This document shows positions 3,541-51,320 of a stretch of DNA of 64,000 nt, piece by piece. Made by a program: the position numbers and the translations under genes. Numbering within the stretch: position 1 is the first letter of the stretch; each line of letters opens with the position of its first letter. Source of the stretch: Halothermothrix orenii H 168 (lineage in GTDB: Bacteria > Bacillota > Halanaerobiia > Halanaerobiales > Halothermotrichaceae); assembly GCF_000020485.1 (NCBI RefSeq), contig NC_011899.1, forward strand, positions 2,202,501 through 2,266,500, read 5' to 3'. The notes beneath the pieces are model-generated. The model did not search any database, was not told where the DNA came from, and saw nothing but the letters and a program-made list of their open reading frames with translations.

Positions 3541-3572
3541 AAAGCAAAAACCGCCCCCGGTCGGGGCGGTTT
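3541..3572 (-). terminator. Riboswitch expression-platform terminator
   Basis: AAACCGCCCC pairs with GGGGCGGTTT around a five-base loop and is followed by TTTTTGCTTTTT on the minus strand. The 5' arm includes the last conserved bases (AACCG) and closing strand of the upstream aptamer, so aptamer folding and terminator folding are mutually exclusive. Confidence 0.85.
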
Positions 3573-3635
3573 CACTACTAGCTCCCTCTCCTTCAAGTGA
3601 CCACGTACAAAGAAGAGTTCATAGCTTCCCATTCA
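3561..3635 (-). promoter_or_regulatory. Cyclic-di-GMP-II riboswitch aptamer
   Basis: The minus-strand leader carries the hallmark blocks of the c-di-GMP-II class: CACTTGA at 3599-3593 and TAGTAGTGAAACCG at 3580-3567, with TCAC/GTGA closing the hairpin. These match, from memory, the crystallised Clostridium acetobutylicum c-di-GMP-II RNA (GCACUUGA and UAGUAGUGCAACCG). A pseudoknot CTCTTCTT (3616-3609) with AAGGAGAG (3593-3586) forms eight pairs with a sequence different from the Clostridium one, which is covariation-type support. The aptamer starts about 55 bases after the predicted transcription start and overlaps a terminator, so ligand binding should switch the surface operon on. Confidence 0.85.
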
Positions 3636-3697
3636 ATATTATTAAATTTTACAATAAATACCTTAAACTATTGGATAATTATACAAATTTCAATTTT

Positions 3698-43833: not shown

Positions 43834-45600
43834 TTAATTTTCTATAACCTCATGATTGACCTTAATAATCTCTCCATCAAAAAGTTCCATAACCCTGTTT
43901 ACCAGGTCATCATCTTTTTTGTTTTTTTCTTTTTTTTTAACAGCAGTATTATTATACCCCTTTTCTTTTTCTCCTGCAAGCCGGAATCTGACCTGACATC
44001 TTGTCCCGGCTATCTTACTAACCACATCTTCAATCAACTTTTTCTCCTTTTCCGCTCCTTTTTTATGAAAAGCCTTATCTTCAGGAAATTCAATAACCAG
44101 AACCTCACCATCAAAGGCAGCAGGTCGGGATTCTATTAAAAAAGCCTGGGCCTTGATATTTTTTTCTTTAATCTGTTTTAAGACAACAGGCCATCCTTTT
44201 CTGAATTTATCAAGGGTTAATTCGCCTCCTGAGGCATCTTCAACTCCCTGTCCACCACCCATATCAGTTCTGATGCCGGTCTCATGTTCAGGAGTGTTAT
44301 CGCTTTTAACCCGGTTTTTGTCTGCTTTATTATCTTTAATACTACCTTTTTTATTCTTCTTTTTCACACCCTGTCCGGTCATAACTTTATCGCTTCCAGA
44401 AACAGTATTAAAAGTTGATGTTATTCTATCCCCATCATTAGCGGTTATTTTTCCTGATATTATATTTTCCAGCCTGGCAATTCTCTTTTCCAGGTCTATA
44501 ATTGAACCTCCGGCCTCAGGGTTAGCCATCTTTATAATACCGACTTCAAGGATTAGCCGGGGCTCATCAGAATATTTAATATCACGCTCCATTACTGTAA
44601 GCTGATCTATTATTTCAATCAATCTGCTGGTCTTTATGGCTCTGGCCTCACCTGATATTTTCTCTAAAACCTCATCAGGATATTCTATAATCCTGGAATC
44701 AGGGCCGCATTCTTTTACAAGAAGGAGCTGCCTCCCGTATTCAATCAAATCACCTATAAGACGCCCTACATTATTTCCCCGACTGATTATTCTATTTACC
44801 AGTTTTAAAGCCTCAACCGAATTCCCGTTGAGAACATATTTGATAAACTGGCTTAAAACCTCCCGGCTTACCTTGCCGAGCATACCCTGCACATCAATGG
44901 GGTTGAGGTTATTACCTGTGTAAGATATCGCCTGATCCAGGAGACTTATAGCATCCCTGAGGCCCCCATTGGCTGACCGGGCCAGTATATTTAGAGCCTC
45001 TTCCTCAAATTCAACCTCCTCTTTTTCACAGATATAGCGGAGCCTCTCCTGAATTTCCCTGACCGGGAGCAGGGAGAAATCAAAGCGCTGACAGCGTGAT
45101 AGAATAGTATTAATAACCTGATGGGGTTCAGTGGTAGCCAGGATAAATACCACCTTTTCCGGTGGTTCCTCCAGGGTTTTTAATAAAGCATTAAAGGCCC
45201 CTTTAGTTAACATATGAACTTCATCTATTATATATACTTTATATTCCCCCTCATTGGGGTAAAATTTAACCTTTTCCCTTAATTCCCTTATTTCATCAAT
45301 CCCACGGTTTGATGCAGCATCAATTTCAATAACATCAATGGACTGACCTTTCTGGATCTTACGGCAGTTCTCACATTGACCACATGGTTCCGTAGTAGGA
45401 CCATGAATACAATTTAAAGCCATGGCAAATACCTTGGCAGTTGATGTTTTCCCTGTCCCCCTGGGCCCGGCAAAGAGATAGGCATGGGCTATTCTACCAC
45501 TTTCCAGGGCGTTTTTTAAAGTCCGGACAACATGGTGCTGGCCGACCAGGTCATTAAAGTTTTGAGGACGGTACTTTCTATATAAAGATAAAAATCCCAT
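43834..45600 (-). CDS. dnaX: DNA polymerase III gamma/tau subunit
   Basis: 588 residues. AAA+ clamp-loader core: RPQNFNDLVGQ, Walker A GPRGTGKTST (about 45-54), zinc cysteines in CGQCENCRK, Walker B YIIDEVHML, sensor ATTEPHQV, SRC arginine finger LSRCQRFDF. A low-complexity linker (residues ~400-460) and C-terminal tau-like domain follow. Near residue 555 the message has exactly nine consecutive As (43930-43938), then A7 and A6 runs; slippage there would end translation within about ten codons. First gene of dnaX-ebfC-recR, downstream of the SRP RNA terminator. Confidence 0.96.
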   Translation of the reverse strand: MGFLSLYRKYRPQNFNDLVGQHHVVRTLKNALESGRIAHAYLFAGPRGTGKTSTAKVFAMALNCIHGPTTEPCGQCENCRKIQKGQSIDVIEIDAASNRGIDEIRELREKVKFYPNEGEYKVYIIDEVHMLTKGAFNALLKTLEEPPEKVVFILATTEPHQVINTILSRCQRFDFSLLPVREIQERLRYICEKEEVEFEEEALNILARSANGGLRDAISLLDQAISYTGNNLNPIDVQGMLGKVSREVLSQFIKYVLNGNSVEALKLVNRIISRGNNVGRLIGDLIEYGRQLLLVKECGPDSRIIEYPDEVLEKISGEARAIKTSRLIEIIDQLTVMERDIKYSDEPRLILEVGIIKMANPEAGGSIIDLEKRIARLENIISGKITANDGDRITSTFNTVSGSDKVMTGQGVKKKNKKGSIKDNKADKNRVKSDNTPEHETGIRTDMGGGQGVEDASGGELTLDKFRKGWPVVLKQIKEKNIKAQAFLIESRPAAFDGEVLVIEFPEDKAFHKKGAEKEKKLIEDVVSKIAGTRCQVRFRLAGEKEKGYNNTAVKKKEKNKKDDDLVNRVMELFDGEIIKVNHEVIEN

Positions 45601-45699: not shown

Positions 45700-45721
45700 A
45701 AAATAAACCCCGGTACGGGGT
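45700..45721 (-). terminator. Terminator between SRP RNA and dnaX
   Basis: ACCCCG pairs with CGGGGT around TAC (45707-45721), followed on minus by TTATTTTTATTT. It ends the tRNA/tadA/SRP transcript about 125 bases after the SRP RNA. Confidence 0.75.
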
Positions 45722-45842
45722 CCTTTTGTATATATTTTAATTTATATTATATGAAGAAGTCTGCCGTAAATATAATTCTTCCTATATAAGCTAATTTCAT
45801 AATAAAAAACTATAAAAATGATTCCATTTTAAAATAAGTAAT

Positions 45843-46112
45843 GGCCGCACACCTGACTTCGAACTTTCCTCCCCGGGCGTTACCCTGGCAGTTAGCTCGG
45901 ACCAGGCACCCTTACGGCACATGGAGGCATTTACTTACCGCTGCTTCCTCCCGGACCTGACGGGGTTCGTAAAGCTCCATTGCGTAAGACCCAATCGTCA
46001 ACACCACTTACCAGGGGCAGACCCCGCAAAGGGAAGCCCTCGGCCAGGCCTCGACCCTGCTATAGCGGGTTGCAGGTTACAGGGCACCGCTACCACCCCG
46101 TCTAGTACGGCC
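45843..46112 (-). ncRNA. ffs: Signal recognition particle RNA, large Firmicute type
   Basis: About 270 bases on minus. The domain IV hairpin has the universal GTCAGGTCCGGGAGGAAGCA block (near 45970-45945), which binds Ffh. The 5' end GGCCGTAC pairs with the 3' end GTGCGGCC, and the 5' part contains the Alu domain found in Bacillus-type scRNA (GGGGTGGTAGCGG). With Ffh it directs nascent membrane and secreted proteins to FtsY. Location between tadA and dnaX is the Firmicute standard. Confidence 0.95.
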
Positions 46113-46160: not shown

Positions 46161-46254
46161 TGGCGGAGAGGGAGGGATTTGAACCCTCGGTAGCCAACAG
46201 GGGCTACACATGATCTCCAATCATGCTCCTTAAGCCAGACTCGGACACCTCTCC
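46161..46254 (-). tRNA. tRNA-Ser (GGA)
   Basis: 94 bases including encoded CCA. Acceptor GGAGAGG/CCTCTCC, anticodon loop TTGGAGA, long variable arm TGTAGCCCCTGTTGGCTACC typical of serine tRNA, T-loop GGTTCAAATCC. Reads UCC/UCU. Confidence 0.97.
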
Positions 46255-46280: not shown

Positions 46281-46373
46281 TGGCGGAAGGGGAGGGATTT
46301 GAACCCTCGAGACACTTAATGTGCCTACTCGATTTCGAGTCGAGCGGTTTCAGCCAGACTCACCCACCCTTCC
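46281..46373 (-). tRNA. tRNA-Ser (CGA)
   Basis: 93 bases including encoded CCA. Acceptor GGAAGGG/CCCTTCC, anticodon loop CTCGAAA, long variable arm, T-loop GGTTCAAATCC. Reads UCG. Its first 24 bases overlap the 3' end of tadA. Confidence 0.96.
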
Positions 46374-46829
46374 CCGGGTTTGCCTCAATTCGCTGAAAAA
46401 ATCCTTAATAATTTGCCGGCATTCAGCAGCCAGCACACCACTTTTAAGCTCTACTGTATGGTTAAAACGGTTATCCTGTAACAGGTTATATAAAGAACCT
46501 GCTACACCAGCTTTAGGATCAACCGCTCCATAGACAACCCTTTGAAGGCGTGCCTGCATAATTGCCCCGGCACACATGGGGCATGGTTCTATAGTTACAT
46601 AAAGCTGACATTCATTTAAACGCCAGCTCGAAAGTTTTCTAGCTGCATCTCTGATAGCAACAATCTCAGCATGGGCAGTGGGGTCATTTTCAGTTTCCTT
46701 TAAATTATGACCACTCCCCACAATTTCTCCATTACAAACGACTACTGCCCCGATGGGTACTTCTTCAAGGGCTAATGCTTTTCTGGCTTCTTCAAGGGCA
46801 AGCTCCATAAAGTCTTCATCTGTCTTCAT
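46350..46829 (-). CDS. tadA: tRNA-specific adenosine deaminase
   Basis: 159 residues. Zinc/active site: His53 and catalytic Glu55 in HAEIVAIRDAAR, Cys83 and Cys86 in EPCPMCAGAI. Conserved VPIGAVVV and GHNLKETENDPTAHAE. Deaminates A34 of tRNA-Arg(ACG) to inosine so it can read CGU, CGC and CGA. The gene for that very tRNA lies 50 bases upstream on the same strand. The last eight codons, including the TGA stop, lie inside the tRNA-Ser(CGA) gene. No strong ribosome site is visible before ATG 46829; a small AAGGCTTTATAAAAAGCC hairpin overlaps the start region. Confidence 0.96.
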   Translation of the reverse strand: MKTDEDFMELALEEARKALALEEVPIGAVVVCNGEIVGSGHNLKETENDPTAHAEIVAIRDAARKLSSWRLNECQLYVTIEPCPMCAGAIMQARLQRVVYGAVDPKAGVAGSLYNLLQDNRFNHTVELKSGVLAAECRQIIKDFFSELRQTRGRVGESG

Positions 46830-46878
46830 CTATATAAAGGCTTTATAAAAAGCCCCTATCCTCCTTAAATCAAAGGAA

Positions 46879-46955
<77 letters not shown>

Positions 46956-47002: not shown

Positions 47003-47182
47003 GTGTTTTTTAAAACAATTTTAATACTATTAATCAAACAATAACCTGAAATCATTATCGATTCCGAGAATAAATTTTACTACTACAGAAGGGTTTTGTC
47101 AAGACCCTCCACGGAGAAAATTGTTCCATTACCGCCAAAACTGTCATACAATAAAATTTTAACCTGAAAAAGGTCAAAACAA

Positions 47183-47695: not shown

Positions 47696-51320
<3,625 letters not shown>

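Follow-up and report, generated by a model that had tools for sequence, protein, structure and literature searches.

Within the window, by which we mean the whole 64,000-nucleotide stretch of DNA that was analysed, we have located a gene for the tRNA adenosine(34) deaminase TadA that ends inside a tRNA gene. The genome of Halothermothrix orenii consists of one contig of 2,578,146 bases, and the minus strand carries here, in this order, a promoter-like site, tRNA-Arg(ACG), tadA, tRNA-Ser(CGA), tRNA-Ser(GGA), the SRP RNA, a terminator-like hairpin and dnaX (Table 1). The tRNA-Arg(ACG) is presumably the tRNA that is edited by TadA. The protein scores 169.7 bits against the NF008113 model, above its equivalog cut-off of 150, and this match rules out a junk ORF at 46350-46829 (-). 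The earlier note, made from the sequence alone, had stated that the last 24 bases of tadA, including the TGA stop, are the first 24 bases of a complete tRNA-Ser(CGA), and ARAGORN, Rfam, the ORF and NF008113 all bear this out. The tRNA search that it had proposed for 46281-46373 gave tRNA-Ser(CGA) on the minus strand with both ARAGORN and Rfam, and the Rfam tRNA model covers 46284-46373 (-) with 54.5 bits against a gathering score of 29. The shared bases are GGA AGG GTG GGT GAG TCT GGC TGA, which are read as G R V G E S G and stop. The first base of the tRNA is the first base of a tadA codon, and the TGA occupies tRNA bases 22-24, in the D loop, so that the two genes overlap on the same strand. 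An intact tadA with its stop inside a complete same-strand tRNA is one mark of the CDS/tRNA overlaps of the selB/selC kind. Elsewhere in the window, we observed a c-di-GMP-II riboswitch aptamer at 3555-3638 (-), with 70.1 bits, and a pyruvate:ferredoxin (flavodoxin) oxidoreductase at 47696-51235 (-), with 2037.6 bits against TIGR02176.

Table 1. Features of the tadA locus in window coordinates.
Feature	Position	Strand	Evidence
Promoter-like site TTGACA-17-TAAAAT, upstream of tRNA-Arg	47074..47102	-	11/12 consensus matches
tRNA-Arg(ACG), first gene of the unit	46879..46955	-	ARAGORN; Rfam 65.6 bits
tadA, tRNA adenosine(34) deaminase, 159 aa; stop codon 46350-46352	46350..46829	-	ORF; NCBIfam NF008113
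24-nt overlap, tadA end with TGA stop = tRNA-Ser(CGA) bases 1-24	46350..46373	-	
tRNA-Ser(CGA)	46281..46373	-	ARAGORN; Rfam 54.5 bits
tRNA-Ser(GGA)	46161..46254	-	ARAGORN; Rfam 52.1 bits
Large bacterial SRP RNA	45845..46110	-	RF01854, 216.3 bits
Terminator-like hairpin, 3' of SRP RNA, before dnaX	45705..45723	-	Pattern scan
dnaX, DNA polymerase III subunit gamma/tau, downstream neighbour	43834..45600	-	NF004046, 589.8 bits vs cut-off 400

The arrangement is unique among the tRNA genes surveyed in this genome. Considering sense ORFs of at least 80 aa around 52 Rfam hits (52 rows, 51 distinct contexts), tRNA-Ser(CGA) alone has its 5' end crossed by a same-strand ORF that stops inside the tRNA. 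Two other sense ORFs overlap tRNAs: an 85-aa ORF starts within a tRNA, and a 92-aa ORF spans three of them. The published genome report counts 56 tRNAs (PMC2626281), so a few tRNAs lie outside the 51 contexts of our survey. The genome also contains a tmRNA gene (202.1 bits) and, elsewhere, a gene for tRNA-Ser(UGA) (L107).

The two genes are likely on a shared transcript, in view of the promoter-like site upstream of tRNA-Arg and the terminator-like hairpin 3' of the SRP RNA. The region contains 6 promoter-like sites, compared with 4.0 (sd 2.1) in shuffled sequences, and 2 terminator-like sites, compared with 2.0 (sd 1.4). These numbers are not above those of the shuffles, and accordingly the transcription unit is a reasonable reading and a predicted one. 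When the end of tadA and the tRNA were folded together, the minimum free energy structure paired tadA with tRNA sequence; the z score was -1.56 and 15 of 200 shuffles were as good, and therefore RNA structure was not used as evidence.

The earlier note had also suggested looking for the overlap in related genomes, and we found it to be widespread. For the order, 38 genomes were searched, 31 had a tadA match and 30 had a readable stop. The tadA gene overlaps tRNA-Ser(CGA) at 18 of these 30 loci and is free of overlap at 12. For the class as a whole (59 genomes, 51 matches, 50 readable loci), 23 loci overlap. Outside the order, all 5 readable loci of family f10 show the overlap and none does in families f8 (0/5), f9 (0/2) and f11 (0/8). 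The stop codon lies at tRNA positions 12-14 in 15 loci of the class and at 22-24, in the D loop, in 8, with TAA as the stop in L050. Further out in the phylum, 10 of 78 loci overlap, with the stop at positions 12-14 in five, 8-10 in three, 20-22 in one and 21-23 in one. These 78 loci comprise 76 phylum loci (23 + 53, from 69 families) together with G059 and G060; the phylum loci are the best-scoring part of 273 matching genomes among 299 searched, mostly one per family, and not a random sample. G001 was left out because its tadA runs off the contig, and the 5' end given by ARAGORN was shifted by one base in L008 and L045. Altogether, 33 of 128 loci overlap, from 14 families and 19 genera. As with selB/selC, the overlap is common to related genomes.

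The next tRNA within 300 nt of tadA is tRNA-Ser(CGA) at 98 of the 128 loci, which points to an ancient neighbourhood and a recurrent overlap. On the one hand, family f3 retains the overlap at 11 of 12 loci. On the other hand, the register of the overlap differs even inside one genus (g13), and a TadA tree with 128 rows requires at least 17 changes of overlap state; this tree is poorly resolved, with 61 of 125 inner branches open. In families f8 and f11, the next tRNA is tRNA-Ser(GGA), whose sole early stop is a TAA at positions 23-25. None of these 13 loci overlaps, and tadA is out of phase with this TAA at 11 of them. At 22 of 80 distant named loci, tadA is followed by a tRNA within 1 kb, in every case without overlap and with the closest tRNA at +9; one of the 80 (L111) is probably the same genome as the class member L006.

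Going upstream from tadA, the first tRNA within 500 nt is tRNA-Arg(ACG), the presumed TadA substrate, at 18 of 30 loci of the order and at 14 of the 20 other loci of the class. In the 78 other phylum loci, the nearest upstream tRNA is tRNA-Arg(CCT) in 45. The leader of tadA also deserves a separate remark. At 8 of 9 loci of families f1 and f7, namely in the window (46830-46866, minus strand) and in L004, L006, L007, L008, L012, L019 and L033, a hairpin-forming spacer of 26-32 nt with differing sequences separates the Shine-Dalgarno sequence from the start codon. It is absent in L005, and weaker and 3 nt off in L004, and the distance is an ordinary 5-10 nt in f3, f5.g9 and f6. On sequence grounds, this hairpin looks like a conserved structured spacer that would draw the Shine-Dalgarno sequence and the start codon together.

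The overlaps are short throughout the sample. Their lengths are 10 nt (3 loci), 14 nt (20), 22 nt (1), 23 nt (1) and 24 nt (8), with a maximum of 24 nt. If the phase were random, the chance of all 15 family-by-register combinations staying within 24 nt would be 3.6e-5, a value obtained with a cut-off of 24 nt set post hoc and with combinations and families that are not fully independent. At none of the 128 loci is the tRNA nested whole in the tadA frame; the main form known from selB is thus not seen here, and the overlap takes the partial form only. Stop codons located ahead of the tRNA are also informative. Where tRNA-Ser(CGA) starts 0-45 nt after the FFxxL motif, 29 of 64 loci overlap, compared with 50.9 expected for random spacer codons, an expectation that takes no account of shared ancestry or inherited stops. 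Counted per genus (47 genera), there are 14.2 overlaps compared with 36.3 expected. Four overlapping loci have a still earlier tRNA start and fall outside the 0-45 nt anchor rule; with these included, the count becomes 33 of 68 compared with 54.9. For the tRNA-Ser(GGA) pairs, 0 of 9 overlap and 5.0 were expected. Since overlaps are fewer than random codons predict, stops ahead of the tRNA are over-represented, by inheritance or by selection, and we consider that this excess may be inherited rather than selected. Together with the length limit, it fits better with an overlap tolerated up to a limit than with a demand for overlap. TadA proteins without the overlap mostly stop directly after FFxxLR. 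Accordingly, the tRNA-encoded tail is not a conserved part of the protein, and the GRVGESG tail as a functional protein element was ruled out.

One locus seems to preserve a trace of a lost overlap. In L011, a locus of family f4, the 3' end of tadA reads GGAAGGATGGATGA and continues with ATCTGGCTGA (about 1943-2094 of the locus). Of the 24 bases at this end, 21 agree with the start of the locus's own tRNA-Ser(CGA) and 22 with the commoner form of this tRNA; the next best ungapped match in the locus, the tRNA itself excepted, reaches 14 of 24. The intact tRNA-Ser(CGA) starts 138 nt downstream, behind a promoter-like TTGATG-17-TATAAT. In our reading, the 5' end of the tRNA was duplicated, by which the tRNA would have been freed and tadA left with a stop derived from the tRNA. 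A tRNA remnant left in the protein gene after separation is also characteristic of the selB/selC kind of overlap. The QKDG/QKDS tails of f5.g5 (L013, L026, L028) were considered as further remnants, and proved weak, with 8, 8 and 10 of 14 bases.

We propose, with a probability of about 0.6, that the overlap is a tolerated result of tight gene packing, in which TadA is made first and the tRNA later, and in which the nonstop remnant of the message is passed to tmRNA. The tadA and tRNA-Ser(CGA) genes would follow one another in the same orientation within a single transcription unit, and where little or no spacer is left, tadA would use a stop codon within the tRNA, here the UGA of the D loop. 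Ribosomes would complete TadA first, on the unprocessed RNA. When the 5' part of the tRNA is clear of ribosomes, the tRNA could fold and RNase P could cut between 46374 and 46373. The 5' piece would then be a tadA message that ends on the whole codon CGG and has no stop, and ribosomes left on it would be freed by tmRNA while the RNA decays. While it terminates at bases 22-24, a ribosome would occupy the 5' part of the tRNA; therefore, translation and folding exclude each other at any one moment and can still follow one another. The overlap would be tolerable because TadA could spare its last residues, would be required in small amounts, and because tRNA-Ser(UGA) probably reads the same codon, which would make tRNA-Ser(CGA) redundant. 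Both the frequent changes of the overlap state and the surplus of stops ahead of the tRNA point to tolerance rather than to a selected switch.

The earlier note had argued that processing of the tRNA 5' end by RNase P would remove the stop codon from the tadA message, and that a given transcript may therefore give either the tRNA or full TadA. The first part stands on the sequence, provided that the cut falls at 46374/46373. The second is too strong, because translation of an RNA may precede its processing, and the same RNA can then yield the tRNA later. Either/or would be the stronger claim, and it is one that the comparative data do not favour; TadA first, tRNA afterwards and clearance by tmRNA fits better.

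The overlap could also be a selected switch, in which folding of the tRNA and cleavage by RNase P stop the synthesis of TadA. The enzyme and tRNA-Ser would then be alternative products, with the supply of TadA adjusted to the maturation of the tRNA. We consider this unlikely. On a shared transcript, the overlap makes a conflict unavoidable, and its retention in f3 and f10, the tRNA-Arg(ACG) so often found upstream and the small variability of the last tadA codons in f3 would all suit a switch. On the other hand, two fifths of the loci of the order (12/30) do without the overlap, the register varies within a genus, the overlap state has changed many times on the TadA tree and stops ahead of the tRNA exceed the random expectation. 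Moreover, tRNA-Ser(CGA) is the reader of UCG; to our knowledge it has no link to TadA and is not a TadA substrate.

The codon variability just mentioned also bears on the view that two transcripts are involved. In this case, tRNA-Ser(CGA) would come mainly from a promoter inside tadA, the read-through tadA messages would be minor and separately processed, and the overlap would be of little consequence. In f3, codon variability is 0.27-0.45 over codons 61-135, 0.14 over codons 136-150 and 0.05 over codons 151-157, which are mostly tRNA. The first 15 codons of tadA vary little as well (0.10), and the low value at the 3' end is therefore not unique. The drop at the end could reflect an extra constraint, and there may be a hidden promoter or processing site. 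Over the last ~20 tadA codons of 11 f3 loci (for example L014 and L018), synonymous variability is low, including GAT TTT TTC among the loci listed. A weak promoter-like site, TGGAGA-16-CATAAT (9/12), lies within tadA at 46731-46704 (-), and the escaped tRNA of L011 has a promoter-like site of its own. However, a scan for this 12-position consensus type found no site of at least 9/12 in the 60 nt before the tRNA at any of the 33 overlapping loci, whereas such a site was present at 3 of 58 loci with a near tRNA free of overlap and at 3 of 20 where the tRNA lies farther away. The mean best score before the tRNA of the overlapping loci was 5.82, against 5.47 in control tadA windows. We regard two separate transcripts as rather improbable.

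A more far-reaching form of the switch appears very doubtful to us. Here, maturation of tRNA-Ser(CGA) would recurrently set the time during which a transcript can make TadA, and would thereby tie the supply of inosine-34 to the tRNA processing capacity, with tRNA-Arg(ACG) often cotranscribed in the class. This reading draws on the position of the TadA stop in the tRNA, by which maturation would limit TadA output. Finally, a sequencing or annotation error, the former named in the earlier note as what would undo its claim, can practically be dismissed, because the same kind of overlap recurs in the other genomes (33/128 loci, 14 families, 19 genera), TadA scores above its equivalog cut-off and the tRNA is complete.

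In summary, we have described a natural series that leads from overlap through near-overlap to a fossil-bearing escape. In this series, the same RNA would have to act both as a tRNA and as the end of a message. The series makes testable the fate of a gene whose message would lose its stop at each tRNA maturation. It also suggests that tRNA nucleotides can be reused as stop codons in several registers, never past base 24 in our sample. For annotation pipelines, it means that such genes should not be trimmed.

Bacterial mRNA-tRNA co-transcripts such as secG-leuU are cut by RNases. As at tadA, the protein gene lies upstream of the tRNA in one transcript; in contrast to tadA, the stop lies outside the tRNA and processing spares the reading frame. 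Unlike the selB pair, the pair described here joins a tRNA deaminase with tRNA-Ser(CGA), which is, as far as we know, not a substrate of the protein. According to Mukai 2021 (PMC8124441), the tRNA-Sec gene selC is nested in or partly overlaps selB in Alphaproteobacteria, Gammaproteobacteria and Nitrospirae, which is presented there as the first case of a tRNA nested within a protein ORF of bacteria. That paper proposes that SelB supply is tuned to the maturation of tRNA-Sec, and the RNase P cut with its nonstop message is a hypothesis there too. As at tadA, selB enters the same-strand tRNA behind it, with the stop inside the tRNA in Dyella and Luteibacter, and the overlap has been lost in some relatives with remnants left (PMC8124441). 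The tRNA is usually nested whole in selB, or the stop lies at tRNA positions 46-48 (PMC8124441), whereas the tadA overlaps extend over 10-24 nt. Within our sample, the tadA overlaps are spread over no fewer than 14 families, all of the same phylum. Overlaps of protein and tRNA genes, with one RNA serving as mRNA and tRNA and cut at the tRNA ends, are also described for animal mitochondria in the same paper (PMC8124441); those are compact organelle genomes, whereas tadA lies on a bacterial chromosome of 2.58 Mb. In our literature search, whose coverage lay mostly outside subscription journals, selB was the one bacterial CDS/tRNA overlap found, and none was found for tadA. The tadA/tRNA-Ser(CGA) pair joins the selB/selC kind of overlap, and what is new are the shorter overlaps and the different gene pair.
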